Origin: a virus
Length of the DNA: 40,009 nt
IMG/VR virus record: IMGVR_UViG_3300036861_000069
Location: 1 to 40,009 of that record
Reading direction: 5' to 3' (one strand)
The stretch's first letter is position 1. The number at the start of each line of letters is the position of its first letter. Shown in pieces: positions 2,265 to 40,009 of the stretch. The position numbers and the translations under genes are program-made. The notes under the pieces were generated by a model. The model made no database searches, was not told the DNA's origin, and saw nothing but the letters and a program-made list of their open reading frames with translations.

Positions 2265-2570
2265 TCACTTCTTCTCCTCGTTCGTCTTCGGCTCGTCCTT
2301 CTCCACCCTGCCCCACTTACCATCCTTGATCCGAAAGCCCGCGGCGGCGAGCGCCTTACTGGCTTCACGGAGCTGGTAATTCAGCCTCGCGGCTTCCATG
2401 CGGGTGTCACCGGCATCGCGCTTCGCCATGCCGAGGTCGACGTTGCACTGATCCAGGCGGTCCTCGAGGGAGGGGGGTGGCGGTGGCGACTGAGCGCACG
2501 AGCGTTCGGCGACGCCGAAAATCACGGCCACGCCAACCACGAGGCCGGCGTTGAGGATGGTCTGTCTCAC
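2265..2570 (-). CDS. Signal-anchored coiled-coil protein, spanin-like
   Basis: 101 residues. GTG 2570 overlaps the stop of the membrane gene upstream (GTGA), with GGAGA in front. N-terminal hydrophobic segment (TILNAGLVVGVAVIFGVA) ends near SCAQ, followed by a Pro run and a long predicted helix (EDRLDQCNVDLGMAKRDA ... LNYQLREASKALAAAGF) and a highly charged tail. Either a signal peptide or an uncleaved anchor is possible. A membrane-anchored helix exposed to the periplasm, just upstream of the lysozyme, resembles an i-spanin; this and the genes at 1980 and 704 compete for that role. Confidence 0.55.
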   Translation of the reverse strand: MRQTILNAGLVVGVAVIFGVAERSCAQSPPPPPSLEDRLDQCNVDLGMAKRDAGDTRMEAARLNYQLREASKALAAAGFRIKDGKWGRVEKDEPKTNEEKK

Positions 2571-3541
2571 GTACCGAGTTCTCCTTCGGAGTGGAGTGCC
2601 CCACCGAGTACCAGCACCATGACCGGGGCCAGCGTCGGGAGGTGGAAGACCTGAAGCCCGCAACTAAGCACGGCGACGGACGCGAACGCCCCGCGCCACA
2701 TCGCGGGGGCACGAGCCACCCAGCGCGCAGACTCACGGCACCAGCCGACGAGGAGCGCCACACCGACCATCCCGGTCTCGTAGAGCCACTGCAATGGCTC
2801 GTGGTGAGCGGCAGTGAAGAGATGTCCCGGGACGGCATCGTGGCGCCACATGCGGCTTCCCCATCCGCCTGGACCGTAGCCGATCATCCACGCGAGAGGG
2901 GTCATGTCGGTCAGGCCCGCTCGCCAGAGGTCGAGTCGTACCCCCGTGGAATACAGGCTCTTGTAGGATGTCACCAGCCCGTAACTGATGACCGCAACGG
3001 AGGCCAGGGCCACGATCAGGAGACGGTCCTCCGGCCAGCGCACCAGGGCTCCGACGAGGACGGCCAGCGCGGCAAGATAGGACTTCGACCATACAATGCC
3101 GAGCGCGAGGAGGGGCCAGGCCCACCATGGGGACAGCGGAAGCACGGCCGCCACGGCGGCCCCCAGGAAGGCCGGTTGAGCCAAGGTGCCGCCCCGCCAG
3201 ACGAAGGACCAAGCGATCTCGAAAGCAACGCAGAGCAGGAGCGACCACCGGACAAACTCCCTGGGGGCTCCCCGGACCATGGTGAGCAGTCCGACCCCCA
3301 GAGCGAAGTAGACCGACGTCCAGAGGGCCGACTCGTGCCCTGCGTGGATCGCTCGGACGACAACATAGGCGACGGCGAGTCCAAGCCAGCCGCGCACCCA
3401 TACCGCCAGCACGAGTCCGCCAGCAGGGAGCCACAGCGACCACGGGACGTCATAGAGCCGGCCGGACGGACTCGTGGCTCGAGCGATCAGCGGGCTCCAC
3501 GTCAGGCCCACGAGGGCCAGCACCACGAGGAGCGGAATCAC
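2567..3541 (-). CDS. O-antigen ligase/polymerase-like polytopic membrane protein (Wzy/WaaL type)
   Basis: 324 residues from GTG 3541 (GTGA overlap with the upstream gene). About nine hydrophobic segments span the protein. The diagnostic region is residues 202-267: RLDLWRAG, then GYGPGGWGSR, then TAAHHEPLQWLYETGMVGVA. The Wzy_C (O-antigen ligase/polymerase) family has the same order: R..W, G.G.G and a loop with AHN..L....E.G..G. The earlier WSKSYLAALAVL segment also fits. Family members transfer or polymerise lipid-linked glycans on the periplasmic face of the inner membrane. It sits between exported proteins and the lysis genes. A role in altering host surface sugar, as known for phage D3 Wzy-beta, is inference. 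The protein is short for the family (usually about 400 residues). Confidence 0.75.
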   Translation of the reverse strand: MIPLLVVLALVGLTWSPLIARATSPSGRLYDVPWSLWLPAGGLVLAVWVRGWLGLAVAYVVVRAIHAGHESALWTSVYFALGVGLLTMVRGAPREFVRWSLLLCVAFEIAWSFVWRGGTLAQPAFLGAAVAAVLPLSPWWAWPLLALGIVWSKSYLAALAVLVGALVRWPEDRLLIVALASVAVISYGLVTSYKSLYSTGVRLDLWRAGLTDMTPLAWMIGYGPGGWGSRMWRHDAVPGHLFTAAHHEPLQWLYETGMVGVALLVGWCRESARWVARAPAMWRGAFASVAVLSCGLQVFHLPTLAPVMVLVLGGALHSEGELGT

Positions 3542-3969
3542 GGGACGTTGACCGGCATCGGCCCCATCTGCGTCCCGAAGCCGTAGACCGAGCCGGTCCC
3601 GGTCCCCGTCGTCACGCTCGACAGCCGCATGCGGACCCGCGTGACGCCGATGACGCTACAGCGAAAAATCCCGTTATCCGGCGCGGTGCTCGCCGTGCTC
3701 GACCCCTGCGGGTAACAGGGGATCGCGGACCACGTGGTGCTCGAGCCGATCGACCCCTCTGGGTTGACGGTCCCGACGAACGTGCCGGTCTTAACGACCT
3801 GGAGACCCAGGACCGTGAAGTTGCCGGTGTTCATGACGGCGCCGTTGCCGGCGACCGTGGCCGCGTTCTGGAACGTGAACGCCTGCGAGAACGGCGGCTG
3901 CTGGGCGCCCACAGGCACCACGAAGGCCGCGGTCAGCAACAGACACAGGGTAACGAGACGTCGGATCAT
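3538..3969 (-). CDS. Exported beta-type protein with Sec signal
   Basis: 143 residues; ATG 3969 has GGAGGT six bases upstream. Leader MIRRLVTLCLLLTAAFVVPVGAQ ends in a typical GAQ cleavage context (signal shown only for its h-region here: LVTLCLLLTAAFVV). The mature part is Thr/Ser/Gly-rich with alternating hydrophobics, compatible with a beta sandwich, and contains two cysteines (IPCYPQG and FRCSVIG) that could form a disulfide in the periplasm. The preceding and following genes overlap it by start-on-stop. No family recognised. A virion decoration or cell-surface protein are both possible. Confidence 0.75.
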   Translation of the reverse strand: MIRRLVTLCLLLTAAFVVPVGAQQPPFSQAFTFQNAATVAGNGAVMNTGNFTVLGLQVVKTGTFVGTVNPEGSIGSSTTWSAIPCYPQGSSTASTAPDNGIFRCSVIGVTRVRMRLSSVTTGTGTGSVYGFGTQMGPMPVNVP

Positions 3970-4208
3970 CGAAGACCTCCAAGGCGTTGAGAGTGTACGG
4001 CACGCGGGTCGATGGTATCAGGAAGACAGACCCAAGTCAGCGACCGATGACTGAGGCGACGGGCTTGCGTGGCGGCCATCTCGCACTGCTCGGACGAGAT
4101 GAACGCCACCTGCACGGGACGCTCCCGCGGGGGCTCAGACAACGGCGCCCCGATCCACCACGTCGACCCGAAGGCACTCCAGAGTATCCACGCCACGACG
4201 GTTGCCAT
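3966..4208 (-). CDS. 80-residue small exported or membrane-anchored protein
   Basis: ATG 4208 with a strong AAGGAGG site. The N-terminus has one hydrophobic stretch (MATVVAWILWSAFGSTWW) and the following domain has VAFISSEQCEMAA and WVCLPDTIDPR. A short leader followed by an F.S...C and C.PDT.DPR pattern is familiar from small phage and proteobacterial hypothetical proteins of unknown role. Two cysteines in the mature part suggest a periplasmic disulfide. It lies between the large fibre gene and the 143-residue exported protein. Confidence 0.65.
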   Translation of the reverse strand: MATVVAWILWSAFGSTWWIGAPLSEPPRERPVQVAFISSEQCEMAATQARRLSHRSLTWVCLPDTIDPRAVHSQRLGGLR

Positions 4209-4230
4209 CCGCTCCTCCTTCGCGCCGCCG

Positions 4231-7200
4231 TTAGCACGGCCCCGCATTCGCGAACAGATTGCCGTTGATATCCGCGCATACCGTGGCGGACGCCGCGACA
4301 CCAGCTAGCTTTCTATTCGTGACGAGCCCATCCTGGCGAACCTTGAACTGACTCGTGCCGTTCACCTGGAAGTCCATCACGTTGCCTGTAAACCCGGACG
4401 GCGCGTTGCTGAAGATGACGCCGTTCTGATCGACACGGAACAGCAACGGGCCAAAGAGCGTGGCGCCCGATAGATCCCGATCGTAGAACTCGACAAAATG
4501 CGTCCAGCCACCTGTCGACCCGCTCCCCACGAGCACCGCTGTCCCCGCGCGCGTCGTGACCTGCCCCGCGACTTGATCCCCTGACCACAGCCACAGCCCA
4601 TGATGACCCTGATGATGAATCCCGCCCGCTCCCGAGACCTGCGTATGCACCCCACCGGCCACTGCGGCATTGAAGCCACCTTGCCCGGCCGCGGTCAGGC
4701 GGGTGTACTGGAAATCGCCCGCCACCATGCCGCCGTTGATATTGCTGCCGTCCGTCGTGAGCTGCACGGATACACCCGCGAACTCGGAATTCGCCGAGGT
4801 GTTTCTCGGAAAGAACTCGCTCAGGAGGCCATATGCCTGCGTGGTCGTGGCGGCTGTGTCGGTGCCGGCTGTCAAACGAAGAGCCGCGATGCCGGTGGCG
4901 TTTGAGGCGAAAGCAGCGATAGGTGTCACTCGTATCGTGCCATCATTCAGAATGCGCATGTTCGGCGTCGTCGAGGAGTAGCTCGACGCGACGCGGAACG
5001 CATCCGTCCACGCCTCTGTTGCGCCTCCATCCGTCGTCTTACTCAAGACGAAGAATGCCGACGCTCCGATTAAGGTGGTCCCAAAGGGGCTCGTGAGATT
5101 CTGCGCGACAATTCCGAAGCCCTTTGTTGAACACGAGGCAAGCTGGCAATTTAATTCAAACAGGCCGGAGGATACTAACGTGCCGATACTCGCCACGGCA
5201 CTGGCGACCCCCATGAATCCATTGACCCCGTACACGCTGGCATTCGAGCCGAGGTTGTAGAAACCGAACCCTGCCAGGGCAGCGCGTTCAGTTGCCGAGG
5301 AACTTCCGAAAATCTCGTAAGTATTCACGCTGGCGATGCCCGTTCCAGTGAACGTCGCACCCTCAATGGCGCGTGTCCATCCTGTCACGGAAGTATGATC
5401 GCCCAATCCCGTCGCTAACGATGTCGACGAATCATTATTGACAACGTAGTAACCAGCCACAGGATTCGAGGTGAGTCCACTCTCGGCAGCGTTGCGCAAG
5501 CCGGAGGTCGTCGCATTGATTAGCAATGGGCGCGAGTTCGCGAACGATGGGCTTATCAGGCTCGGCGTCATCACCTGGAAGCCGATTCTATCGACCATCC
5601 ACGTCTCGGTACCCGCGTCTGTGCTCAAAACCTGAATAGCACGCGCCGTCGTCGTCGAGCCCGATCCCATCCACGCCCGATAGGCGGCAGCATCCCAACT
5701 AATCGGGCCCAGAGACCCCACGCCAATGAGAAACTTCGGGGCGTTGATGCCCTCAAAGAACAGGAGCCCCGAGCCTCGGGCACTGGCGAGGGCGCCGCCA
5801 GAAGCGTCAAGCGTGGCGCCATAGATAAATGAGTTAGTGTTCGTGGTGCTGATGAGGTCGACGCTGCCATCTATTGTGCCGAGGACTGAGGCATTCGCTC
5901 CAGAGCCGACCGACTGCAACCGCATCGCTGTCGTCTTAGCATTCCCCGTCCCTGAATTGGTCACAGTGCCGATGAGACCTCGAATAGGCTGTACGCTCTG
6001 TGTCGCCCCGGTGGCGGCAAGCGTAAAAGCAAATGCGTTGAGGTCGCCTGCCCCAGAGTTCGTCAGGTTCACTTGAACAGCATTCAACTGCTTACCGGAA
6101 GCCACATTGAGAACGGTCGGCGAGCTAGGGGTCACACCCCCGATCGTCAATCCATACCCAAGCGTATTCCCGGCAATGTCATAGACAGGCGAAGCGGCGG
6201 TGATGTTCTGCCGTGCCACTCCACCGACGACGACCTGAGCAGCGTCGAACGTGAAGTCTGCGCTTGATAGCACCGTATTCCCGGCCGCCCCATAGAGAAT
6301 GCGCCCCGCCGTCAAGACGTTGTTGAAGATCGGCGTGCCGGCGTTGAACGAAACAACCCCTGTGGACCCGCTGACGTCGGAGCCCCAACCGCCGAACGGC
6401 CGTGAGAGAATGCCGGCCGTGACGTTGCCGCTGGCGTCGGTGGAGAGTGCCCCGGCGCCGTAGGCGTTTAACTTCATATTCCCGGCCTTATCCAGCCGCA
6501 TGACTTCAGCTAATGTACCCGTCGTTGATGTGGAGAAGGCGAGATCCGCCGAGCCGGAGGTGCCATTTGTGATCGCCTCGATTCGAGCCCCACGCTTCGC
6601 TCCGGTCTCGTTCGTGAAGGCCAGACTCCCTAGGCCCGCCCCACTCGCACTGGTGTTACCGAGCAATTCAAGGATGCCTTCACCGGTTCCCCTACCGACC
6701 GTAACAACAAAGTTTGAGGCACTGAAGGCCCCAACATTTGCCGAGGTGGTCCCGAGGCCGATGGTGGTAGATGTGATACGAACAGTCTCCGCGAGCGCGG
6801 CTCCATCCGGCTTGATACTGATGCCGAGATACGCGCCTCGGTTGTTCGCAGTGGTGCCCGTCGATTGAGCGTAGATTTCAGCCATTCGCTTGCCGCTAGT
6901 GTTGTTGGAGCCAATGAAGGCCAGATAACCAAGGTCGGTGGCTGCGGCGTCAGCCGCCGTAGAGACCAATTCCACAACTCCCTTGTTGGCACCGACGATA
7001 CTTACGATTGTGCCCGAGCCAAAGGCGCCGACATTCGGGGTTGTAGTGCCAATGCCGACGTTCCCCTGCGCCGAGGCATTGAGAATCACATGAGCATTCA
7101 CGGGAGCACCGTTTGAGGTGCCGGCGAGCGTCAGGGTGCTCCCGGCCGCCGTGCCGCCGTAGATGAGTGGCGTCGTGACGCTCGTCACGAATGTTGCTGC

Positions 7201-7950
7201 CGCGATAAAACTCGTCGCGCAGCTTCCGGCGCTCGTCGTCACCGCCCCCGTGAGCGCTGGCAACTGTCCACACGCAAGGTTTCCCGACAGATCTGTGAAC
7301 GCTGGCTGGACCACGGTAATGTCCGCGCCGACGCTATTCTGCCGGAGGAACTTCGAGGCCCCGCCCGTTCCACTGAGGTCGGTATGTGTGCCGCCCCGCG
7401 CGAGCCCGAGGAGCCCTGTCCACCCGAGGGTGTGGACGTTAGACGCCGATGTCATGGTGACGTTGGTATCGTTACCAAAGCTCTGCACCGAGCCCGATTG
7501 ACCGCCGAGCGTCAGGATGCCTCCGGCAGCGCCTCCGCATGTTGGGGTGAAGGTCCAATGTCCTGCACCATCGGTAACGAGGCAATCACCGCTATTGCCG
7601 TCCTGCGTCGGCCATGTGAACGTAATATTGGCAGGGACAGAGCCGACCGTGAACGTCGTCGTATTGGCGTTAGCGCCGCTGAAGAATGTCGCCTTGCCGT
7701 AGGTGGTCGACGCGACACCAAGATTCAAGAACGTAGGGCCAGTGAGTGTCAGCCCGGTCAGCGTCATCGGATCAACGAGCCCGAGATTGAGGGTCCCGCC
7801 CAACCCGACCGGCGAGCCGGAAACCGTCGTATGCAACGCCTCCGGGACGACGGTGATTGTGCCCTGTGGAGTCGGGTCGGTATTAGTAGAGGTAATGCCC
7901 GCCCAGGCCAGCGAGGGGAAGAGAATCAGAACGAGAAGTAGCCGCCGCAT
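4231..7950 (-). CDS. Large fibre-like protein with Sec signal peptide (1239 residues)
   Basis: ATG 7950 overlaps the upstream stop (TGATG). The leader MRRLLLVLILFPSLAWAG has an AWA cleavage site. The mature protein is a long Gly/Ser/Thr/Ala-rich repetitive sequence of the phage tail-fibre kind, with units such as NVGIGTTTPNVGAF and SGKRMAEIYAQ, and with KRGARIEAITNGTSGSADLA. It ends TVCADINGNLFANAGPC. About 250 residues match the 548-residue protein encoded at 8303-9949. By composition it should be an elongated beta-structured trimeric fibre. A cleavable signal peptide is not expected for a fibre assembled in the cytoplasm. It may be a fibre loaded from the periplasm, a secreted adhesin or a decoy. 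Export is inferred from the leader. Confidence 0.8.
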   Translation of the reverse strand: MRRLLLVLILFPSLAWAGITSTNTDPTPQGTITVVPEALHTTVSGSPVGLGGTLNLGLVDPMTLTGLTLTGPTFLNLGVASTTYGKATFFSGANANTTTFTVGSVPANITFTWPTQDGNSGDCLVTDGAGHWTFTPTCGGAAGGILTLGGQSGSVQSFGNDTNVTMTSASNVHTLGWTGLLGLARGGTHTDLSGTGGASKFLRQNSVGADITVVQPAFTDLSGNLACGQLPALTGAVTTSAGSCATSFIAAATFVTSVTTPLIYGGTAAGSTLTLAGTSNGAPVNAHVILNASAQGNVGIGTTTPNVGAFGSGTIVSIVGANKGVVELVSTAADAAATDLGYLAFIGSNNTSGKRMAEIYAQSTGTTANNRGAYLGISIKPDGAALAETVRITSTTIGLGTTSANVGAFSASNFVVTVGRGTGEGILELLGNTSASGAGLGSLAFTNETGAKRGARIEAITNGTSGSADLAFSTSTTGTLAEVMRLDKAGNMKLNAYGAGALSTDASGNVTAGILSRPFGGWGSDVSGSTGVVSFNAGTPIFNNVLTAGRILYGAAGNTVLSSADFTFDAAQVVVGGVARQNITAASPVYDIAGNTLGYGLTIGGVTPSSPTVLNVASGKQLNAVQVNLTNSGAGDLNAFAFTLAATGATQSVQPIRGLIGTVTNSGTGNAKTTAMRLQSVGSGANASVLGTIDGSVDLISTTNTNSFIYGATLDASGGALASARGSGLLFFEGINAPKFLIGVGSLGPISWDAAAYRAWMGSGSTTTARAIQVLSTDAGTETWMVDRIGFQVMTPSLISPSFANSRPLLINATTSGLRNAAESGLTSNPVAGYYVVNNDSSTSLATGLGDHTSVTGWTRAIEGATFTGTGIASVNTYEIFGSSSATERAALAGFGFYNLGSNASVYGVNGFMGVASAVASIGTLVSSGLFELNCQLASCSTKGFGIVAQNLTSPFGTTLIGASAFFVLSKTTDGGATEAWTDAFRVASSYSSTTPNMRILNDGTIRVTPIAAFASNATGIAALRLTAGTDTAATTTQAYGLLSEFFPRNTSANSEFAGVSVQLTTDGSNINGGMVAGDFQYTRLTAAGQGGFNAAVAGGVHTQVSGAGGIHHQGHHGLWLWSGDQVAGQVTTRAGTAVLVGSGSTGGWTHFVEFYDRDLSGATLFGPLLFRVDQNGVIFSNAPSGFTGNVMDFQVNGTSQFKVRQDGLVTNRKLAGVAASATVCADINGNLFANAGPC

Positions 7951-8312
7951 CACGTGCCACGACAAACATAGAAAATCTTGCCGTCCCCGAGCGTGAGCGC
8001 CATCGTGATCGTCAGCGCGGTCGTGCTGGTCGACACGCCAAGCGAGATCGCCGAATTGGGAACCGCGATGCAGACGGGCGCGGCGCTTAACGTCGCAGAG
8101 AAGCTGAGCGTGCAGCTCAGGACCGAGACGCCCGAGCCGACCGTGATGATGCCAGAGCCATTGTCCCCCGAGACGCTGGGTGATGTGCCGCAGGACGACA
8201 CGGTAGGCGTGCCGCTGAGCGTCGCGGCCGTCCCGTCCGTGAGAGCTACCGGGAGCGCCCAGACGGACGTTGTGAGAAGAAGCAGCACCAGGAGCGCTGC
8301 GACTAGTTGCAT
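7950..8312 (-). CDS. Exported small beta-type protein with four cysteines
   Basis: 120 residues, ATG 8312, overlapping the end of the 548-residue fibre gene by ten bases. Leader MQLVAALLVLLLLTTSVWAL is a clear Sec signal with an A-x-A-like site near SVWA. The mature part is Ser/Thr/Gly-rich with four cysteines (SSCGTS, LSCTLS, PVCIAV, YVCRGT), enough for two disulfides. It lies between the two fibre-like genes, so it may be a partner of one of them. No family recognised. Confidence 0.75.
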   Translation of the reverse strand: MQLVAALLVLLLLTTSVWALPVALTDGTAATLSGTPTVSSCGTSPSVSGDNGSGIITVGSGVSVLSCTLSFSATLSAAPVCIAVPNSAISLGVSTSTTALTITMALTLGDGKIFYVCRGT

Positions 8313-9949
8313 ATGCTGACCCCGTTGAGGCGCTTAGCAATCGCCCCGGTGCCGGAGCCGGCGCAGGGATTGGCGATCGTGCAGTCGGAGCAGTACCCGA
8401 CGTCGCCGTTCGTCGTCAGCACCGTCGCGATGTTGGCGAACGTAAATCCGGCCAGGCGCGTGGCGCCGGCCTTCGTCCAGCGCAAGACCTCCGCGAGCGT
8501 CCCAGCGCTCGATGTATAGACCGCCAAGTCAGCAGACCCATCGGTGCCATTGGTGATGGCCTCGATGCGGGCACCGCGCTTCGAGCCGCTGATATTCGTG
8601 AAGGCGATCGAGCCGATGCCGGTGGCGCCGCTGGCGGTATTCCCTGTGACTTCCACGACGCTCTCGAACCCTGACGCCGCCCCAATCGTTAGATACGTAT
8701 TCGAGGCACTGAACGCCGCGACGTTTGAGGCTGTCGTGTTGATGTCGACGTTGCCGCCGCTCTCAATCCGCATCCGCTCCGTCAGAGACCCGGCGTTCGG
8801 CTTCGTGTTGAACCCCAGAAACGCCCCGCGATTATTCGAGGTCGCGCCGACCGTCTGGGCATAAACCTCGGCCATCCGCTTGCCGCTAGTGTTCGCGCTG
8901 CCGATGAAGGACACGTAACCGAGATCGGTCGCCGGGGCATCGGCGGACGTCGAGATCAGTTCGAGCACGCCCTTGGTGGCACCGCTCACGCTGGTCACGG
9001 TGCCGGAGGCGAAGCCGCCCACGTTGGGGGTCGTGGTCCCGACCGCCACATTCCCCTGAGCCGAACCGTTGAGTATCACGTCGGCACTCGCCGGGCTGCC
9101 GTTAGAGGTGCCGGCGAGCGTGAGGGTACTCCCGACGGTCGTGCCGCCATACACGATCGGCACCGTCACGCTAGTCGTGATCGTCGGGGCGACCTGCATG
9201 ACGAACGTGGTCCCCGTGCCGGTCTGGGCCGCAATCGCCGTCGCGTTGCCGCTCGACGTGATGGGGCCGGTCAGGTTCGCGTTCGTGATGACCGTGGTCG
9301 CGCACGATCCCGCCGACGTGGTGACACTACCGGTCAACGCCGGCAACTGCGCGCACGTCGCCGAACCCGAGAGATTTGTAAAGGCCGGCTGAGCCTTGGA
9401 GATGACGCCAGCAGCGCTGATGGCCGTCAGGAAATTATTGGACGAGCCGGTATCGGCGACCACCGTGGTCCCGATCGTGCCGGCTGCATTCTTATCGTGG
9501 AATCGAAGACCGGTGGAGTCACCGAAGATGGCGAGCTTCCCAGCGGACGGTGAAGACGGTGCAGCGATATCCGTGAAGAGGATGTAACCAACTGCGGGCG
9601 TTGCCGTCGGGATACTCGCGAGCGTTGTGGCATTGCCGATCGAGGTCACATCACCTGTCAGGTTCGCATTGGTAATTACGGTAGTCGCGCAGGAACCAGC
9701 CGAGGTGGTCACGCTGCCCGTTAATGCGGGCAGTTGCGAACACGCAAGACTGCCCGAGAGATCCGTGAACGGGATCGTCGGAATGACGCTCCACGCCCCC
9801 GTCAGGATATGGAGGTAACCAGTAGACGCGGAAGTGTCAATGCCGGTGCCGCCTCTGACCGGCGGGACCATCGTGGGGCCAGTGGTGGTGATGCCGGCCC
9901 ACGCGCCCGACGGGAACAGGAACAGGAGCGCAAGAAGAAATCGGATCAC
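8303..9949 (-). CDS. Fibre-like protein with Sec signal peptide (548 residues)
   Basis: GTG 9949 overlaps the upstream stop (GTGA). Leader MIRFLLALLFLFPSGAWAG has an AWA cleavage site followed by GITTTG. The N-terminal third has two copies of a unit containing QLPALTGSVTTSAGSCATTV (residue ~70 and ~205). Then come a stretch shared with the 1239-residue protein (NTSGKRMAE, NNRGAFLG, SKRGARIEAITNG) and a Cys-rich C-terminus (GYCSDCTIANPC, ending SICN). The composition is that of phage fibre proteins. The signal peptide and even cysteine pairs argue for a periplasmic stage. Paralogue of the 4231-7950 product. Confidence 0.8.
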   Translation of the reverse strand: MIRFLLALLFLFPSGAWAGITTTGPTMVPPVRGGTGIDTSASTGYLHILTGAWSVIPTIPFTDLSGSLACSQLPALTGSVTTSAGSCATTVITNANLTGDVTSIGNATTLASIPTATPAVGYILFTDIAAPSSPSAGKLAIFGDSTGLRFHDKNAAGTIGTTVVADTGSSNNFLTAISAAGVISKAQPAFTNLSGSATCAQLPALTGSVTTSAGSCATTVITNANLTGPITSSGNATAIAAQTGTGTTFVMQVAPTITTSVTVPIVYGGTTVGSTLTLAGTSNGSPASADVILNGSAQGNVAVGTTTPNVGGFASGTVTSVSGATKGVLELISTSADAPATDLGYVSFIGSANTSGKRMAEVYAQTVGATSNNRGAFLGFNTKPNAGSLTERMRIESGGNVDINTTASNVAAFSASNTYLTIGAASGFESVVEVTGNTASGATGIGSIAFTNISGSKRGARIEAITNGTDGSADLAVYTSSAGTLAEVLRWTKAGATRLAGFTFANIATVLTTNGDVGYCSDCTIANPCAGSGTGAIAKRLNGVSICN

Positions 9950-10239
9950 TTGAATCGCTCGATATGGCCCCTATCAGCACAGTTCGCTAGCGTTGATCGC
10001 GTAAACCCGGACCACTTAACTTCGTTTTCGGAGACACGGAGCGCCTCCCCGAAACAGATATTGCAACCGCATGGAGCCTGCACCTCGCGCGTCTCACCAA
10101 TCGGGATCTGCTCAAACTGCCTGGCTAGCAGTGCGCGACGACCCATCTCCTCGATCTCCCAGTCCTGAAGCTGGAAGCTTGTGATACCAGCCCATGCCGG
10201 CGAGACGAGCAGAAGAAGGATCAGCAGGACTACGGGCAC
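9946..10239 (-). CDS. 97-residue exported protein with AWAGIT leader
   Basis: GTG 10239 overlaps the TAG of the upstream gene, with GGGGCG upstream. Leader VPVVLLILLLLVSPAWAGIT has the same AWAGIT cleavage region as both fibre proteins. The mature part differs from them: a charged helix (DWEIEEMGRRALLARQFEQI) followed by a Cys cluster (APCGCNICFGEAL) and NCADRG. Four or more cysteines could form disulfides or bind metal. No family recognised. It lies directly before the 548-residue fibre gene. Confidence 0.7.
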   Translation of the reverse strand: MPVVLLILLLLVSPAWAGITSFQLQDWEIEEMGRRALLARQFEQIPIGETREVQAPCGCNICFGEALRVSENEVKWSGFTRSTLANCADRGHIERFK

Positions 10240-10619
10240 GTGTAGAGCGCCCCACTGATCGTGAGATCGACGTCGGTGCCGACGCCCTGCCACGCGGTAA
10301 TCGTCATGCCCGCCGTGAGCACGATCCCGTTCATGTACTCGAGCGCCTGATTCGCGGCCAGCCCGAAGGCTGGCACCCACGAGACCCCATCACCCTTGAC
10401 GGTGACCGCACGCACGGTCGTCCCGGTGGCGTTACTGGCGATGAGCGCCGAGGTCGTGACGAAAATCTTACCGGCGGGAACCGTATAGACGACCGTATTC
10501 GGGGTCGTGGTCAGCGCGCCGTGAAACGCCAGCGTCGGGACGATGGTGCAGGGCGCGGCCTCGGCGAGCGCAACGCCACCCACCAAGAACAGAGAGACGA
10601 GCAGCGCGCGTCGGATCAC
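10230..10619 (-). CDS. 129-residue exported beta-type protein
   Basis: GTG 10619 overlaps the upstream stop (GTGA). Leader MIRRALLVSLFLVGGVALAEA is a standard Sec signal (cleavage near AEA). The mature part carries VVYTVPAGKIFVTTSALI and DLTISGALYTCP, a pattern of short beta strands resembling small jelly-roll or head-fibre-type domains. Two cysteines near the ends (APCTIV and YTCP) could clamp the fold. Function unknown. Confidence 0.75.
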   Translation of the reverse strand: MIRRALLVSLFLVGGVALAEAAPCTIVPTLAFHGALTTTPNTVVYTVPAGKIFVTTSALIASNATGTTVRAVTVKGDGVSWVPAFGLAANQALEYMNGIVLTAGMTITAWQGVGTDVDLTISGALYTCP

Positions 10620-11050
10620 TGGAACCCCACCAGCCAGAACAGGACGTCCAGGCTCGTCGTCACGTCGACCGAGCCCGTGATCGGGACGTTGGCGGCCTGG
10701 GTTAACCGGCCCTGCTTATCGACGGTGAACTGTCCGACGTTGGTGGCGTCTCCGTACTGACCGGGCGTGACCGCGGTGTCCGCGATGGAGATACCAGGGA
10801 CGCCGAGGCCGGGGTCCGTGACCACGATCCCGGTGCCGGGGGTGAGCCCAGGTTCCCCAGTGAAGTCACCGAAGACTTGAGCGGTCGCCGCACCCGCCCA
10901 GACCAGCGCGAGAGCGGCGACGAGTACAACGGCTGTCATCGTGCAACATGGGCTCAGACCTGTACGCTGTCCGCCTCGGCTCTCGCCTACGGGTGCCCCC
11001 GACTCAGCGGTTCTTTGGCGCCTCGGGCCTTTCTTCGCCCTCAGGATCAT
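10616..11050 (-). CDS. Exported protein, Ala-rich leader, DFTGEPG repeat-like mature part
   Basis: Two starts are possible. ATG 11050 lies two bases after the upstream stop and gives 144 residues with a 37-residue basic extension. ATG 10939 begins directly at a clean Sec leader (MTAVVLVAALALVWAGAATA, then QVFG) and gives 107 residues. The first is chosen because genes here are tightly coupled, but the second is equally reasonable. The mature part includes VTDPGLGVPGISIADTAV, VGQFTVDKQGRLTQA and SLDVLFWLVGFQ, typical of phage fibre or baseplate-type beta sequence. No cysteines in the mature part. Function unknown. Confidence 0.65.
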   Translation of the reverse strand: MILRAKKGPRRQRTAESGAPVGESRGGQRTGLSPCCTMTAVVLVAALALVWAGAATAQVFGDFTGEPGLTPGTGIVVTDPGLGVPGISIADTAVTPGQYGDATNVGQFTVDKQGRLTQAANVPITGSVDVTTSLDVLFWLVGFQ

Positions 11051-11052
11051 GG

Positions 11053-11553
11053 TTAGTAGCTATCCGCCCTGACCGTCAGAGTGCCGGTCGCGCTGGGGCC
11101 ACACGAGGTCAACGCGAGCGTCATCGTATTCCCGCGGGTGGCGATCAGGGGCACCGTGAACGTCCCGATGCGGAACGAGGAGGTGATCTGGTTGGGATAG
11201 GCGCGGATGACCGTGGCGCCATCGCTGATCGTCAACGTGGCCGTGCCTGCCGAGCACCGCACGGAGAAGTCGTAGACGCGGACGTTCTGCGTGTTCTGGT
11301 TCGGGGTCAGCACGATCGAGATGCCTTGCCCTACTGAGGACGTGACGCTCTTGTTGAGCGGGAAGGCCGCGGTCTGTGCGAAGAGGTCTGGCCGTCCAGG
11401 GCCACGGGCCATGGCGGGCGCCGCGAACACGAGAAGAAGCGCCAGGAGACCGCCGAGGTCTCGGGCGGTGAAACTCCTCCGGTGTTTCTCAGGAGGGAGG
11501 AAGCGGAGCCCCGTCTGCACCTCTCGTGCAGCACCATGCCGGAGGAGGCTCAT
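11053..11553 (-). CDS. Exported or signal-anchored protein related to the 131-residue protein downstream of the virion genes
   Basis: 166 residues from ATG 11553 (ATGA overlap). The hydrophobic segment (GGLLALLLVFAAPAMARG) comes only after 33 polar residues, so it could be a long signal peptide or an anchor; no later start with a good ribosome site was seen. The mature domain contains VRCSAGTATLTISDGATV and LTSCGPSATGTLTVRAD. The same order of motifs occurs in the exported 131-residue protein at 12268-12663, so the two are paralogues with a conserved Cys pair. Confidence 0.7.
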   Translation of the reverse strand: MSLLRHGAAREVQTGLRFLPPEKHRRSFTARDLGGLLALLLVFAAPAMARGPGRPDLFAQTAAFPLNKSVTSSVGQGISIVLTPNQNTQNVRVYDFSVRCSAGTATLTISDGATVIRAYPNQITSSFRIGTFTVPLIATRGNTMTLALTSCGPSATGTLTVRADSY

Positions 11554-11675
11554 GTCCGTAACCCGGTGGAGTAGCCACAGCGCGGCGTGAGACAGATGAA
11601 CCAGCGGACGACGCCGACCACGGCCAGCCCTTCGCCGCTCGCCCGCATGGAGCCGCCGCAGTCCCGGCACTTCAC
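11550..11675 (-). CDS. 41-residue zinc-ribbon-like protein
   Basis: GTG 11675 overlaps the stop of the 77-residue gene (GTGA), and its own TGA overlaps the next ATG. The sequence begins VKCRDCGGSMRASGEG and ends with FICLTPRCGYS, a C-x2-C ... C-x4-C pattern that can bind one zinc ion, as in the phage Ogr/Delta-like zinc-finger proteins (CxxC...TRS..N...C..C) but shorter. A transcription-related role is possible, not shown. Confidence 0.6.
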   Translation of the reverse strand: MKCRDCGGSMRASGEGLAVVGVVRWFICLTPRCGYSTGLRT

Positions 11676-11905
11676 TTCCGTCGTCGTCCCGCCTTGTCGT
11701 TCCCGGCCGGCAAGCCGTTCGTGATCCGTGGCGACGCGCCGCCCCCGAAGTCCCCAATGGTCGTGTTGCCCGGCGTGGTGGCGTCGCCCCCGAAGTCGCC
11801 GACGAGTGCCGGAGGGGACGCGAACGCGAGCGTGCCCTTCACCGGATTGGCCTTGTCGGGGTTCGGTCGCAGGGAGTTCTTGCCGTACTTCGACTCGTTC
11901 TTCAT
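11672..11905 (-). CDS. 77-residue disordered basic-ended protein
   Basis: ATG 11905 with GGAGAT five bases upstream. Begins MKNESKYGKNSLRPNPDK and contains two VGDFGG/IGDFGG-type repeats (residues ~35-57), then a basic end (KAGRRRK). Low complexity and lack of hydrophobic core suggest an unstructured peptide. It lies between the two-span membrane protein and the zinc-ribbon peptide. Not recognised. Confidence 0.6.
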   Translation of the reverse strand: MKNESKYGKNSLRPNPDKANPVKGTLAFASPPALVGDFGGDATTPGNTTIGDFGGGASPRITNGLPAGNDKAGRRRK

Positions 11906-11915
11906 AGGATCTCCT

Positions 11916-12266
11916 TCACGCGCGCCACCAGATCAGGGGCGACAAGATCATGAATCCCGCGAGGACAGCCAGCCGCTCCCACGAGGGGTCGCGCATGGCC
12001 TGGGAGGCAAGGACCATCGCGGCAATGAGCGACGCCCAGCGCAAGGCGCGGCCACTCAACAGCGTGACGATGGGCTCGAGCATCCGAGCCGAGTCGATCA
12101 GGAGGACGGCGATCTCGGCCAGGGCCTTGTCCCGCTTGACCACCCGATGCTGCGCGCGAGCTTGACGAAGTGACGCCTCGTCGGAAATCTCGGGGGGGTC
12201 CATGTCTAGGATCGGTGGGCCGTCGCCGTTTGTCGCGCGATGCGTCTCGGTAGTGAGGTCGCGCAT
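11916..12266 (-). CDS. 116-residue protein with C-terminal membrane spans
   Basis: ATG 12266 directly follows the upstream TGA. The N-terminal half is charged and helical (SLRQARAQHRVVKRDKALAE); the C-terminal half has two hydrophobic stretches (LRWASLIAAMVLASQAM and RLAVLAGFMILSPLIWW) separated by a short loop. A hairpin with both ends in the cytoplasm is likely. Holin or membrane-scaffold roles are conceivable, though it lies 10 kb from the lysozyme gene in map distance. No family recognised. Confidence 0.6.
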   Translation of the reverse strand: MRDLTTETHRATNGDGPPILDMDPPEISDEASLRQARAQHRVVKRDKALAEIAVLLIDSARMLEPIVTLLSGRALRWASLIAAMVLASQAMRDPSWERLAVLAGFMILSPLIWWRA

Positions 12267-12267
12267 C

Positions 12268-12663
12268 TCAGTGCAGGTCCGCGAGCACGTTCAGAGTCGC
12301 CGTATTGCCAGAGCCACAGGCCGCTAGGGTGATGACCACGCTGGCTCCGGCCGCCGCGGTATAGGGCGGGAACGTGAAGGTCACGATCGAGGTGCCGATC
12401 GCCGCCGCTGGCGTGCTCCATGTGGTCACCGTGGCTTCCGCGATGGTCACGCCAGAGGTGCCCGCAGAGCACCACCCGGAGAGCCCGTAGACGCGCCACG
12501 CCCGACCGGCGACCCCCGTCAGGGTCTTGGCCGCCGATGCGCTGGCCGTGGAGACCACCTGCGAGTTCCGGGGGTTGAGTTGGCTCGGATACGAAGTGGT
12601 CTGAGCGAGCGCCGGGCCAGAGCAAGCTAGGAGCATGAGGACCGTCAAGGCGAGTCGTCGCAT
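12268..12663 (-). CDS. 131-residue exported beta-type protein with Cys pair
   Basis: ATG 12663 with GGGGAGG eight bases upstream. Sec leader MRRLALTVLMLLACSGPALAQ ends ALAQ. The mature domain contains SGWCSAGTSGVTIAEATV and ITLAACGSGNTATLNVLAD; the WCSAGT...CG.G.. T.TL.V.AD framework is shared with the 166-residue protein at 11053. Two cysteines in the mature domain suit a periplasmic disulfide. It is the first gene after the internal virion protein block, in transcription order. Function unknown. Confidence 0.75.
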   Translation of the reverse strand: MRRLALTVLMLLACSGPALAQTTSYPSQLNPRNSQVVSTASASAAKTLTGVAGRAWRVYGLSGWCSAGTSGVTIAEATVTTWSTPAAAIGTSIVTFTFPPYTAAAGASVVITLAACGSGNTATLNVLADLH

Positions 12664-12710: not shown

Positions 12711-12935
12711 TCATTCGTCGAACCCTGACCCATAGGCGACGGGCAGCTTGGCCTTGACGGCGAGGTACTTGATCGCGGCGTTGGCGGCGGAAATCTGTTC
12801 GGTCGTCTTCTGGGCATGCTGCATGGCGTCGGTCAGGGTGGCGACGATCCACTCCTCCATCACATCGAGGGTGCTCGCCTCTGGCTGGGCCTCGGAGAGC
12901 AGGCGTTCGGCGTCGGAGGCGAGGTCGTCACTCAT
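12711..12935 (-). CDS. 74-residue helical protein, weak small-terminase-like pattern
   Basis: ATG 12935 overlaps the upstream TGA. The protein is helical and acidic at the N-terminus, with VMEEWIVATLTDAMQHAQ and TEQISAANAAIKYLAVKA. An acidic helix, a short linker and an 'AA.K.L' helix recall short phage small-terminase subunits in podoviruses, but this is only a pattern impression; the gene is 20 kb from the large terminase. It could equally be a small virion or regulatory protein. Confidence 0.55.
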   Translation of the reverse strand: MSDDLASDAERLLSEAQPEASTLDVMEEWIVATLTDAMQHAQKTTEQISAANAAIKYLAVKAKLPVAYGSGFDE

Positions 12936-14239
12936 GGGCCGGGCCACATCTCAGGGACGCCGACCAGGCGCCCGCCCTCACGGATCGCCTGAGCGGCGAG
13001 CGGCGTCGCGACCCGAGCAGCCATGTTGAGCGCGGGCGACATCGGCACGTTCCGGTAGGTGGTCTCCGGGATCACACGCTCGCCGATGGCCCCACCGATG
13101 ACTGGACCAGCGAGATAGCCTGATGCGCCGAGCGGGTAGCCGACCGCCTCGCCGGCCAGCGCGCCCTGGAGCCGTCGAGACCACGGGCTGTGCTTGGCCG
13201 CCGTGATGGGCTGCGCGCCGGGTCGGATGATCGCACGGATCGGGTCCAGGTCACGACTCAGGAGCGAGCGCTTACCGAACTGATCGAACGCGCGCTGCGC
13301 CTTCACGGGGTCGAACGTCTCGCCGTGCAGGAACTTTCCGCGCTCGGCAAACTCCATGAACCCGGCGCCAGCCTTGTACTCAGCGCGCTGCTTCATGAAT
13401 GCCTCACCGAGCCCCTGCTCGATGTCCTCAAGAGAGTGATCGACGCCGCGCAACGCTCGGCGATAGGCTGCGGGGCTGCTTTTCCTGGCCCCGGGCAGGG
13501 CGTCGATCACGTCGCGGATCTCCACTTGGACCATCTCGCGCCCCTCGCGTGGGGCGGTGTCAATCACGCGCGTCAAGCCGAGAGCCGACTTGTCCGACAT
13601 CGGGATCTCCATCGTCTTACCGGCGGGGATCGCGCCCTTGATCCCCTGAAGCGCCCGTTCGTAGTCGGCCGATAAGAGGCGCTGCCCGGTGCCGTGCGCC
13701 ATCTCGTACAGGCCCTTCTCGGTCGACGGCAGACCACTCCAGGACGGCACCGACGTCTTCAGCCAGTCCCCGAGCCTCCGAGCGGTCTCCGAGGCAAAGC
13801 GTCGATACAGCGTCGGGCTGAGGAATGGCGACACGACACGCCCCAGCGCTTCCCCGGCGAGTTGCGTGGCTCCCCCGTAGCCAGGAGAGACCTTCTGGCC
13901 CGTGACGGCCTGACCGACGTCATGTCCCGCTTCGGAGGCCAGCACTCGTGAGGCGAGCCCGGCGAGTCCCGATCCAGGCGCAACGGTAGCCCCGATCATG
14001 GCCCCGATGTCACCCCCGCGCTCCTTGAGGGCCTTACCGAGAAACCCGGACACCGTGGGCTTCGCGACGGCCGCGCCTTTCGGGGCCACGGGGATCGAGT
14101 CCACCCGTTCCTTCGCGAGGAACCCGTACTCCTTCGGGTACTTCGCGGCCAGTCGCGTCCCCAGCTCGTCGTCGGAGATGTCAGCGTAGACGGGGTACTT
14201 CTCGCGCACGGCGGCCAGCGTGGCGGCTCGGTCAGGCAT
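12932..14239 (-). CDS. Probable internal virion/ejection protein (435 residues)
   Basis: ATG 14239 overlaps the upstream stop (TGATG). The N-terminus, VREKYPVYADISDDELGTRL then AAKYPKEYGF, matches a short helical module seen at the start of many large phage virion proteins. The middle has a Gly/Ala-rich amphipathic region (GDIGAMIGATVAPGSGLAG) and the end another Gly-rich hydrophobic region (GYLAGPVIGGAIGER), features of membrane-interacting ejection proteins. It follows other virion-type genes in a block. No enzymatic motif seen. Confidence 0.6.
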   Translation of the reverse strand: MPDRAATLAAVREKYPVYADISDDELGTRLAAKYPKEYGFLAKERVDSIPVAPKGAAVAKPTVSGFLGKALKERGGDIGAMIGATVAPGSGLAGLASRVLASEAGHDVGQAVTGQKVSPGYGGATQLAGEALGRVVSPFLSPTLYRRFASETARRLGDWLKTSVPSWSGLPSTEKGLYEMAHGTGQRLLSADYERALQGIKGAIPAGKTMEIPMSDKSALGLTRVIDTAPREGREMVQVEIRDVIDALPGARKSSPAAYRRALRGVDHSLEDIEQGLGEAFMKQRAEYKAGAGFMEFAERGKFLHGETFDPVKAQRAFDQFGKRSLLSRDLDPIRAIIRPGAQPITAAKHSPWSRRLQGALAGEAVGYPLGASGYLAGPVIGGAIGERVIPETTYRNVPMSPALNMAARVATPLAAQAIREGGRLVGVPEMWPGP

Positions 14240-15744
14240 CAGCGGAGAATCCCGAGCGGGTCATCGGCCGACTCCTGACCCGCCTCGCCCGCAAGGCGTC
14301 CCGCCCGATCGAAGACCCGAAGGTTCCGGCGCGTCATCTCCAACTGGTCCGTGAACGAGCGGCGCAGCATCGGCAGGAAGTGGTCCCAATATGCTTTCGG
14401 TGTCTCGGCGATCCCGCCCGCCTCGGCCTCGCCGATGACCTTCAGGCGCATCACCGAGGCGGTGTTCCCCAGCGACATCTCGGCGCCCACGACGAGGGCC
14501 GTGGCTTGGCGCTTGATCGTGTTCAGCGCTTCGGCGACGTCCTTCCCCTTCTCGCCGCGCGTGGTCTGAAGGGCGAGCTTGGCCCGGAACTTATCGACAG
14601 CGGTCTCGGTCTCCGGGATCACGCCAGCATCCGAGAGCACCTTCACGGCGCGCTCCACGTCCTCGGTCTGACGCAGCCGGTTCGTCAACTGCAACTCCTG
14701 ACCAGAGAGCTTCATGGCTTCCTTGGCGCCCTGAAGGATGGGGAGCCGGGCGTCGGTGACCGCCTTCTGTCGTGCCTCGCGCTCGCGGGCCAACTGCAGC
14801 TGCGCCGCCGCGTTTCGTTCCGTCACCTCGTGCTGCCGTCGCGTCTCCTGATCTCGACGTAGCTGCTCGTCCGCTCGCCGCCGCTCGGCTTCCTCGGTGG
14901 CCTTGTTGTGTCGGGCCGACTCCTCATGGGCCCGCTTCGACTCGGTGAGCGCATCGGCGCGGGCTTGCATGGCGAGCCGAATGTTCGTCATCCGGTCCAT
15001 GTGCTGCTGGCCCCACTGTAACTGTTTGCCGGTCACGTCGATAATCTGCCCGATGTCCTGTTTCTCCGAGGCGAGGATCATCGGCTCGAATCCGTCGAGA
15101 CGTGAGCGGGCGGCTGTGAGGTCCATGCGCTGCGACCACGACAACTGCTGGTCGTCCCAGATCCGTTGATACGACTCCACGCGGTCTTTGTGCTCGGCCA
15201 GCAGCTTCTCGGTATCCGCCTGCCACTTCTTCAGCTCGCGGTTCGCGCGCTCATGGTCACCCTCGGCCCAGCCCTGGAACGCGCCACGTAACGCCGACAC
15301 GGCAGCGGTCGCGGAGCCTCGGAGTCCCGACCACTGCTGACCGATGACGCCGATGCCGAGCATGACCGACTGCAATTGCTGAAGGACCGAGGCGTCGGGT
15401 CCGGGATCGAGGAACCCGCGCGCTTTCATCGACGGAGCGTTCGGCAGTGCCAGCGCGCCCGGCATCGCAGCCTTGCGGGCGGCGGCTTGCTCGGCGGCGA
15501 GCCGTTCGTTCTCGTCGAGTCGTGTCTGTCCACGCTCGACCATGCGGCGCGTGGCCTCGCTCTGTTCGCGCCCCTTGTCCAGATAGGCGTCCAGCGCCTT
15601 GTTCATGAACGAGGTATCCGGTGGCGCCATCCACGCAGGCGTCCCACCGACCGCGCCTTGCGCCATGACGGCTAAGGGGGTCGGCGTCGAGGCCGGGGTT
15701 GCCTCGCCCGTGTCGGACATCTCAGGCGTCAGAACCTCCGGCAT
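14239..15744 (-). CDS. Coiled-coil virion protein, probable internal/ejection protein (501 residues)
   Basis: ATG 15744 immediately follows the TAG of the upstream gene. After a Pro/Thr-rich start there is an Ala-rich region, a hydrophobic patch (QLQSVMLGIGVIGQQW, ~residue 122-137) and a long charged coiled coil (residues ~270-345, e.g. EEAERRRADEQLRRDQETRR). The C-terminus is more mixed. Length and composition fit podovirus internal core proteins that are ejected with DNA. No lysozyme or transglycosylase motif was found. Confidence 0.6.
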   Translation of the reverse strand: MPEVLTPEMSDTGEATPASTPTPLAVMAQGAVGGTPAWMAPPDTSFMNKALDAYLDKGREQSEATRRMVERGQTRLDENERLAAEQAAARKAAMPGALALPNAPSMKARGFLDPGPDASVLQQLQSVMLGIGVIGQQWSGLRGSATAAVSALRGAFQGWAEGDHERANRELKKWQADTEKLLAEHKDRVESYQRIWDDQQLSWSQRMDLTAARSRLDGFEPMILASEKQDIGQIIDVTGKQLQWGQQHMDRMTNIRLAMQARADALTESKRAHEESARHNKATEEAERRRADEQLRRDQETRRQHEVTERNAAAQLQLAREREARQKAVTDARLPILQGAKEAMKLSGQELQLTNRLRQTEDVERAVKVLSDAGVIPETETAVDKFRAKLALQTTRGEKGKDVAEALNTIKRQATALVVGAEMSLGNTASVMRLKVIGEAEAGGIAETPKAYWDHFLPMLRRSFTDQLEMTRRNLRVFDRAGRLAGEAGQESADDPLGILR

Positions 15745-16584
15745 CTATTGTCGCCCCGCCATGATGCCGAGGGTCCGGTTCGCCTGTTCAATGAGCGAGC
15801 TCAGTAGTTGCTCGTTCTGTTGCCCCGATTGGGCGAGCCCGAGTCCGGCATTGGCGCCAACGCCGAGCGCCGCGACGCCACCCGAGCCCTCCTGCTGAAG
15901 CAACTGCGCTTTCATGGCCAGCGCCATCTCATCTATCTGGGCCTCGTATTGGCCCAGCGCCGTGGAGTCCCCGAGCCCGAGATGCGCGAGCTTGGCTCGC
16001 ATGTCGGCCTTCGCCCGATCCGTCCACTGCTTCACCGCGGCTTCCATTGGGGCCGGAAGCTGGCCAGCCTGGGCGGCCTGGACCTGTTGCGTGCCGTAGG
16101 CGATGGCCGGTTGGGCGGCAGCGGCGGCGAATCCTTGCCCCTGCTGTTGCGTCCGCTCCTGTCCCGCCTGTCGGTTCATGGCGCCGATGGTGTTAGCGAT
16201 CCCGAGCCCCGCGGCGCCGAGGCCGAGCGTCTGCGCGAAGGCCGAGAGCGGTGAGACGCCAGCACCGTCCCTACCGGGCCCGAACACCTGTGCCCAGATC
16301 GACGGAGATGCGTCAGCGCCACCGCCGGCACCGGGGACGCTGCCAGAGAAGAAGCGGTCCCAATTGCCGCCCGTTGTGGGATCGCCACCGGAGAACATCC
16401 CGCCCGTGGGGAAATCGCCGCCGAGGCTCGGGACGAATCCGCCGAGGTCTGTGGGCGGTGTGAGATCGGGGACATCCAGTGCGCCCTCCCACTGCGCGCC
16501 AGCGATGGCGCGGAGACGTTCCCCGTTCGGCCCTTCCCACACCCCGTCGCTCAGTGTCCAGCCGTCCATCGTGCCCCCCATCAT
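15745..16584 (-). CDS. Ala/Gln/Gly-rich virion-type protein (279 residues)
   Basis: ATG 16584 overlaps the upstream stop (ATGA); ATG 16569 (start MDGW) behind GGGGGG is an alternative. The first 90 residues are Gly/Pro-rich and the rest is a helix-prone Ala/Gln sequence (QQQGQGFAAAAAQPAIAY, AKADMRAKLAHLGLGDST, EIDEMALAMKAQLLQQ-like). Such sequences are common in phage DNA-ejection proteins of the P22 gp7/gp16 kind. Membership is not proven, and there is no catalytic motif. Confidence 0.6.
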   Translation of the reverse strand: MMGGTMDGWTLSDGVWEGPNGERLRAIAGAQWEGALDVPDLTPPTDLGGFVPSLGGDFPTGGMFSGGDPTTGGNWDRFFSGSVPGAGGGADASPSIWAQVFGPGRDGAGVSPLSAFAQTLGLGAAGLGIANTIGAMNRQAGQERTQQQGQGFAAAAAQPAIAYGTQQVQAAQAGQLPAPMEAAVKQWTDRAKADMRAKLAHLGLGDSTALGQYEAQIDEMALAMKAQLLQQEGSGGVAALGVGANAGLGLAQSGQQNEQLLSSLIEQANRTLGIMAGRQ

Positions 16585-16925
16585 AGCCCAGCGGCGACTT
16601 GTATGAGGTGGTGTTCCTGGGCATGGAGAAAACACCACGTCGCGAACTGCTCACGCTGACGTCGGTCATAGGATCGGAAGTCAGGCGGCGGCGGCAGGAG
16701 GACCGCGCCACGGGCGCCGACGTGCCAGAGTTGGTGGGCTTCATCCCACTCCGCCCCACCGCCATCACCGAGCGGCGGGGTCGGATACGGGCCAGCAGCC
16801 AATCGAAGCCTGACGTGCTGGTCGAAGGCCCGGCCCCACAGGGCATGATGGCCGAGGAAGTCGATCCACGCGGTCTCATCCCCGAAGCCGAGGACCGACC
16901 AGGAGAGCGGATTTATCACCGGCAT
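16581..16925 (-). CDS. 114-residue protein of unknown function
   Basis: ATG 16925; no strong ribosome site. The protein is rich in aromatic residues and His: NPLSWSVLGFGDETAWIDFL, WDEAHQLWHV, ATWCFLHAQEHHLIQ. The stretch from a short N-terminal fold to an E..H/H..H-rich helix is seen in some phage structural proteins, but no family is recognised. It lies between two virion-type genes and overlaps the next start. Confidence 0.6.
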   Translation of the reverse strand: MPVINPLSWSVLGFGDETAWIDFLGHHALWGRAFDQHVRLRLAAGPYPTPPLGDGGGAEWDEAHQLWHVGARGAVLLPPPPDFRSYDRRQREQFATWCFLHAQEHHLIQVAAGL

Positions 16926-16950
16926 GGCGCATACTCACGCATGGGCCGAC

Positions 16951-22235: not shown

Positions 22236-22550
22236 TCAGCCGATCTTGATGAGGGAGGCGACCTCGTCGTCGGTAGCGCCGTGCGAGTTGTGCAGGCGCG
22301 TGTCCACGCCGTCCGAGTAGATGAGCATTCCGAGCGGGGCGGCGTCGCCGTCCTTGAACTTGGTCCACGTCGGCACGGAGCCAACGGTGACCACCTCGAG
22401 GTCCATATCGGCGTCGGTGGCGTACAGCCAGTAGACGCCGGCCGGGATGACGTAGGTCTCGCCGTGGTCCAGTGTGACGACCTGGGCCGCGGCCTGGACG
22501 GAGCCGACAACCCCGGTGAGGATGTTTGTGGGAACCGCATCGAGGCTCAT
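22236..22550 (-). CDS. 104-residue capsid-associated protein, decoration-like
   Basis: ATG 22550 with GGAGGAG seven bases upstream, directly following the major capsid gene. The sequence is of short beta strands: VVTLDHGETYVIPAGVYWLY, LEVVTVGSVPTWTKF, GMLIYSDGVDTRLHN. Small beta proteins encoded next to the capsid gene are commonly decoration or head-fibre proteins. No family recognised at residue level. Confidence 0.65.
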   Translation of the reverse strand: MSLDAVPTNILTGVVGSVQAAAQVVTLDHGETYVIPAGVYWLYATDADMDLEVVTVGSVPTWTKFKDGDAAPLGMLIYSDGVDTRLHNSHGATDDEVASLIKIG

Positions 22551-23555: not shown

Positions 23556-23574
23556 TACGCCACCTCTTGCATTT

Positions 23575-23596
23575 GACGGTTAGAACGTGTACCGTC
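23575..23596. promoter_or_regulatory. Short inverted repeat between capsid start and plus-strand HNH start
   Basis: GACGGT at 23575-23580 and ACCGTC at 23591-23596 form a 6-bp stem with a ten-base loop. It lies between the start of the capsid gene (minus) and the start of the HNH gene (plus, 23603). It could be an operator or an RNA hairpin in either transcript. No convincing -10/-35 pair was found beside it. Confidence 0.35.
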
Positions 23597-23602
23597 GGTG
23601 TC

Positions 23603-27774: not shown

Positions 27775-27875
27775 CTCGATCTCCCCTTCATGGCCTCAGC
27801 CATTCTGGTGCTGCGTGTCGTAGCCGTACATCTCACGCGGAGCAACAGCAACTCCAGCGCGCGCCGAGACGTCAA
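27771..27875 (-). CDS. 34-residue basic peptide downstream of the portal gene
   Basis: TTG 27875 overlaps the portal TGA (TTGA). Product begins LTSRRALELLLLRVRC and ends MAEAMKGRSR; the end repeats the portal's own C-terminal style (MKAMRGRSR). Its stop overlaps the next ATG. The TTG start is unproven and the frame could simply be read-through sequence. Confidence 0.35.
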   Translation of the reverse strand: MTSRRALELLLLRVRCTATTRSTRMAEAMKGRSR

Positions 27876-40000: not shown

Positions 40001-40009
40001 CGCAGCGCG

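Follow-up and report, generated by a model that had tools for sequence, protein, structure and literature searches.

Predicted Sec-exported fibre and decoration-type proteins in the late operon of a tailed phage

Introduction

Tailed-phage fibres of known assembly are added to the particle in the cytoplasm. The locus described here, from the late region of a virus record of 40,009 bases that was analysed whole (the window), raises the question of why a run of phage genes among structural and lysis genes should begin with leaders of the kind that feed proteins into the Sec pathway, and what such proteins might do once outside the cytoplasm. The following sections consider whether the leaders are genuine, what the mature proteins resemble, whether other phages carry them, and which function accounts best for the set.

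Genome context

The window derives from a tailed, probably short-tailed phage whose main genes lie on the minus strand; coordinates below refer to that strand unless stated otherwise. These genes encode a large terminase with an apparent intein (32734-35406), a portal-like protein recognised by similarity to annotated portals (27872-29503), a scaffold-like protein, the major capsid protein (22563-23555, phrog_9953), used as the lineage marker for the control set of capsid relatives, a decoration-like protein (22236-22550), tail proteins, among them a tail adaptor-like one (19484-20521), and presumed internal virion proteins without leaders (12932-17922). The intein assignment corresponds to a PF14890 match below the cut-off (E 1e-5). 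An HNH-like open frame on the plus strand (23567-24214) lies between the capsid and scaffold genes, opposed to the operon direction, and a pentapeptide-repeat-like protein (39467-40009) is open at the contig end. In the tail adaptor-like protein, the N-terminal part is a duplicated domain (IPAGAVDTGV...IRYVDWNTT), possibly exposed at the surface.

The lysis block (622-2570) comprises a gene with a hydrophobic N-terminus, perhaps spanin-like (2265-2570), a possible holin (1980-2264), an endolysin (1546-1983), a further gene (1283-1549) and, last of the lysis genes, an Rz1-like lipoprotein (622-873), from which the host is judged to be probably diderm. Next to this block, a polytopic protein of 324 aa (2567-3541) resembles the Wzy_C family of O-antigen ligases and polymerases (E 1.6e-5, 25.2 bits), at a score short of the Pfam gathering value of 31.7; its gene overlaps the leader gene 3538 by 4 nt. 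The cluster sits where a preliminary description of the window had placed it, with the presumed internal proteins upstream and the endolysin and Rz1-like spanin downstream. A DNA-level search of the first 25 kb against 50,697 phage genomes gave no match, and portal and capsid searches for close relatives returned fragments only, from which the late region was absent.

Predicted leaders and their controls

Leaders were called with two scorers. The first is a weight matrix built from 17 E. coli leaders; the second is a rule that asks for a hydrophobic core, charge in the n-region unless this is very short, a (-3,-1) site and a non-hydrophobic mature start, and it recovers 16 of the 17 leaders behind the matrix. 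The nine Sec-type leaders proposed in the preliminary description were all recovered by the rule, each with a hydrophobic core followed by a (-3,-1) site, as against 14 of 1054 genes in the capsid relatives (Fisher p = 2e-16). The sites are mostly of the A-x-A form, as had been proposed, with seven of this type and two V-x-A. Two further leader genes lie beyond the cluster, at 20531-22228 and 35566-36045, giving at least eleven in total. The weight matrix found no leader in the 89 annotated CDS of the complete relatives MW202753 and MW202825, and high-GC relatives have almost none. A GC-rich control, Burkholderia phage BcepIL02, was set aside as a carrier of such proteins: the rule finds no leader in three of its four fibres, and the call for gp62 (MALKLSNN...) is a likely false positive. 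Lys or Arg is present in the n-region of six of the nine cluster leaders and absent from those of 7950, 9946 and 10616. Between 10939 and 2265 most neighbouring genes overlap by 1-10 nt in a compact operon, which fixes most start sites.

In operon order (hyphens in motifs mark the predicted cleavage site), the cluster opens with a protein of 131 aa (12268-12663; MRRLALTVLMLLACSGPALA followed by QTTS, cleavage ALA-Q), a small beta-sandwich with two conserved cysteines whose LLAC sequence could be a lipobox. Its paralog at 11053-11520 (33% identity, with the Cys pair in common) has 155-166 aa, a long n-region and the site AMA-RG; its start lies at about 11520 or 11553, and the rule is passed from 11520 and failed from the alternative ATG at 11553. 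The next genes encode proteins of 107 aa (10616-10939, ATA-QV), 129 aa (10230-10619, ALA-EA, GTG start, 4 nt overlap with the upstream stop) and 97 aa (9946-10239, AWA-GIT, GTG start at 10239). A fibre of 548 aa (8303-9949, AWA-GIT), a protein of 120 aa (7950-8312, VWA-LP), a large fibre of 1239 aa (4231-7950, AWA-GIT) and a protein of 143 aa (3538-3969, VGA-QQ) complete the set. Between the last two lies a small protein of 80 aa (3966-4208) with a hydrophobic N-terminus and two cysteines, whose leader is doubtful. Outside the cluster, a tailspike-like beta-helix protein of 565 aa (20531-22228, AFA-QG) is encoded directly behind the genes for capsid and decoration proteins, and a protein of 159 aa (35566-36045, AWA-FG) upstream of the terminase.

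Cysteine content and composition of the mature parts

The mature parts of the predicted exported proteins contain 42 cysteines in 3155 aa (1.33%), compared with 6 in 3356 (0.18%) for the leaderless late proteins (p = 2e-8). From 3538 up to 12268 the counts are 2, 8, 4, 8, 4, 2, 0, 2 and 2, with 8 and 2 in 20531 and 35566. The preliminary description had claimed even counts for most of the set, suited to an oxidising compartment; on the present counts this extends to all eleven mature parts. Such enrichment and parity are as expected for disulfide-bonded proteins. Leader proteins of other phages show a similar tendency (1.70% Cys; 26 of the 36 that contain Cys have an even count, which among tip-bearing fibres is partly due to a common four-Cys tip present in just one window protein), while leaderless proteins of the same loci have 0.86% Cys and even counts in 73 of 189. 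Leaderless fibres of the capsid relatives contain 0.31%. Together, leaders, enrichment and parity give good support to a predicted export to an oxidising compartment. The Ser/Thr/Gly richness also proposed for the group applies to eight of the nine cluster proteins, with fractions of 0.31-0.45 (highest, 0.45, in 7950) against 0.12-0.28 in leaderless late proteins, and fails for 9946 (0.19).

Fibre and decoration character

The mature parts look, from their similarities, like phage fibre and decoration-type proteins. Four proteins, 8303, 4231, 10616 and 20531, are homologous to phage fibres in their body or tip. A leaderless fibre of one contig (L087; 38% over 335 residues) and leader-bearing fibres of three others (L089, L090, L092) match the 8303 body, and 4231 is a paralog of 8303, 42% identical to it across the first 520 aa. 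The mature part of 10616 is a fibre fragment, QFTVDKQGRLTQAANV, which also occurs in leaderless fibres of the capsid relatives. The body of 20531 is homologous to a leaderless spike (L113), in which a docking domain occupies the place of the leader. Because the capsid relatives possess leaderless fibres, the lineage can evidently do without export.

For the smaller proteins the similarities are looser. The model of 12268 is an all-beta sandwich closest to small phage beta proteins; its PDB matches are mixed, with middling Z values, and include phage cement and fibre proteins, but the Z of about 8 to the cement protein 7dou_4 is accompanied by matches to unrelated folds. Weak matches link 10230 to phrog_1276 and 3538 to phrog_31544. 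The mature part of 9946 has a weak META-domain match (E 3e-4, under the cut-off), and neither it nor 35566 has the look of a fibre. In the nearest capsid relative (L003), two small proteins with hydrophobic N-termini are encoded near the portal (2510-2761 and 804-1349), one of them weakly similar to 9946 (E 0.002). Pfam searches with 4231 and 8303 gave no match and no S74 domain, and a PDB sequence search gave no useful match. The predicted structure of 20531 (pLDDT 48) was too poor for use. IMG/VR searches yielded no relatives of 12268, of 10230 or of the 20531 body, and searches of cultured phages yielded none of the first two.

Recurrence in other phages

The leader trait is not peculiar to the window phage. 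A conserved four-Cys tip (YCSDCTIANPC..AKRLNG..ICN), made up of the 30 C-terminal residues of 8303, is also found at the end of fibres in some 20 further viral contigs and in the complete phage MW202444. Among about 85,000 bacterial genomes it was matched only three times, and in at least one of these records (L115) it lies beside an integrase-like gene. Within the tip set, which was chosen by similarity to 8303 and is therefore not a random phage sample, a leader was predicted in 16 of the 21 tip fibres whose start could be read and in 41 of 348 other genes of the same loci.

Clusters of leader genes of the kind that the preliminary description suggested looking for in viral metagenomes do recur: several contigs (L093, L095, L096, L101, L103, L104, L106) carry two to four such genes, and their head and tail genes look unrelated. 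The stretch that follows the leader in L106 contains LR.(N/Q)F, a motif similar to the one at the N-terminus of leaderless fibres. Tandem fibres of L095 have unrelated leaders and identical mature N-termini, QTFTAQIQQFWNLLRTGS; the identity begins at the predicted cleavage site, and the corresponding coding stretches differ by synonymous changes alone. This points to a leader that is free to change and a mature N-terminus under selection, a reading that holds likewise for the AWA-GIT junction of three window leaders (4231, 8303, 9946), where the same protein sequence is encoded with different third codon positions. A leader protein in L101 (7027-7935) resembling a secreted esterase (HEAGG, AGFSWG) lies inside a run of leader genes. 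Rhodobacter phage RcXuper also gave a match, rejected because it lay on the wrong strand. The Wzy_C-like protein was considered as an obligatory partner, for example one that glycosylates exported fibres, and dropped because a simple hydrophobicity scan found no such polytopic protein in other leader-fibre loci.

A cultured example is provided by the Shewanella phage vB_Sb_QDWS (OK094664; L118). After start correction, its leader fibre, UEP18758, has 687 aa (14004-16067, minus strand) and a predicted mature N-terminus of QTYPSP. The record annotates 14004-15260 only, and the later start chosen there hides the leader, so that the annotated CDS seems to miss the true N-terminus. This fibre has a Sec leader and a beta-helix homologous to 20531 (28% over 337 aa, E 6.5e-20), with eight cysteines in the mature part. 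Its gene comes after baseplate J, I-like and fibre genes, and short stretches of the protein are similar to receptor-binding proteins from further cultured phages. Unlike the window phage, vB_Sb_QDWS has a single leader fibre and a baseplate J gene. The presence of the trait in unrelated viruses, environmental and cultured, suggests that for some phage fibres maturation takes place beyond the cytoplasm.

Proposed mechanism and alternative explanations

It is proposed that the window encodes tail-fibre, tailspike and small decoration-type Sec preproteins that are exported and oxidised, with the fibres and spikes most likely joining virions, a reading in which our confidence is evenly balanced. 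It starts from the observed leaders, compact operon, cysteine enrichment and parity, fibre-type bodies and recurrence in unrelated phages. Late in infection, the leader proteins would be translated from one operon, the preproteins threaded through the Sec translocon and the leaders cut by signal peptidase I. The mature proteins would then fold in the periplasm with disulfide bonds. Lysis would mix cytoplasm and periplasm, at which point at least the fibres and spikes would most likely attach to particles and form the receptor-binding parts of the virion. Joining at lysis is favoured because leader genes occupy fibre-gene positions, the proteins share modules with virion fibres and the window has no recognised leaderless candidate for a fibre. 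Weighing against the proposal are the cytoplasmic assembly of fibres in tailed phages where assembly is known, the capacity of this lineage to dispense with export, the uncharged n-regions of three leaders and the non-fibre look of 9946 and 35566; receptor binding might also fall to the tail hub 17922 or to the domain duplicated in 19484. For the reasons that favour joining, a periplasmic step fits best among the purposes offered in the preliminary description, one of which, secreted decoys, found no specific support. Somewhat more tentatively, these phages may represent a class of tailed phages whose Sec-exported, periplasm-oxidised receptor-binding fibres and decorations join DNA-filled particles only at lysis.

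A less probable course is that the exported fibres never join virions and have their role in the periplasm or at the infected cell's surface, masking receptors, or coating or sticking cells. Masking could keep progeny from being trapped or second phages out, a purpose like that of T5 Llp in a protein built like the MAT fibres of Bdellovibrio. Apparently genuine export signals, the Wzy_C-like gene of surface-polysaccharide type in the same operon and exported proteins that are not fibres (9946, 35566) would suit this role, as would the precedent of the MAT fibres, which are bacterial, phage-like, exported and surface-displayed (PMC10769870). However, domain searches revealed neither an outer-membrane anchor nor an autotransporter domain, the genes stand at normal fibre positions, and bodies and tips are common to leaderless virion-type fibres. 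Surface action would also leave the window without a recognised fibre.

It is unlikely that the genes are morons, expressed from a prophage and altering the host surface by lysogenic conversion. Integrases are present in vB_Sb_QDWS and MW202444, and surface-modifying genes lie nearby (Wzy_C-like in the window, an O-acyltransferase in vB_Sb_QDWS), but the window genes are embedded and translationally coupled in a late operon beside lysis genes, and the window has no recognised integrase gene. Still less probable is that the hydrophobic N-terminus stays uncleaved and serves the virion as a docking or membrane-piercing helix, an idea to which the uncharged n-regions of three leaders and the substitution of a leader for the docking domain in 20531 would be congenial; the (-3,-1) rule is kept throughout, the conserved mature N-terminus in L095 begins exactly at the cleavage site, and the cysteine counts are even. 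That the leaders arose by chance or from wrongly called starts in GC-rich DNA, conceivable since starts are predicted and several are GTG, is very improbable overall and refuted for most genes by the background, GC and overlap controls.

If the exported fibres join virions, tailed-phage assembly gains an extracytoplasmic step missing from textbooks, and the Sec and disulfide machinery of the host would count among the host factors of phages. Action on the infected cell would instead constitute a new and widespread way to dress or mask it. The cultured phage vB_Sb_QDWS makes either reading open to experiment.

Comparison with known systems

Literature searches, with subscription papers and bioRxiv preprints largely outside their reach, found no published account of leader-bearing tailed-phage fibres. 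The window set resembles known tailed-phage fibres and tailspikes in its fibre-type bodies, beta-helix, C-terminal tip and place among structural genes; those fibres, however, are leaderless and cytoplasmic, whereas the window proteins carry a Sec leader and are rich in cysteine. Virion proteins with signal peptides are found in filamentous phages, whose coat proteins pIII and pVIII are assembled at the inner membrane; these phages share this property with the window phage but are not tailed. T5 Llp and similar exclusion lipoproteins are small, phage-encoded and exported during infection. The window proteins, in contrast, include fibres and have no clear lipobox, except possibly 12268.

A further parallel is bacterial. 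In the MAT fibres of Bdellovibrio, as in the window fibres, an N-terminal signal peptide precedes a phage-like fibre; a conserved domain of about 130 aa directly follows the signal peptide, and 13 of 21 members end in a C-terminal S74 domain (PMC10769870). The window genes differ in belonging to a phage, and no S74 domain was detected in 4231 or 8303, although a non-S74 MAT subfamily exists. As the MAT fibres are both exported and phage-like, they indicate that fibres of this kind can be secreted and used.
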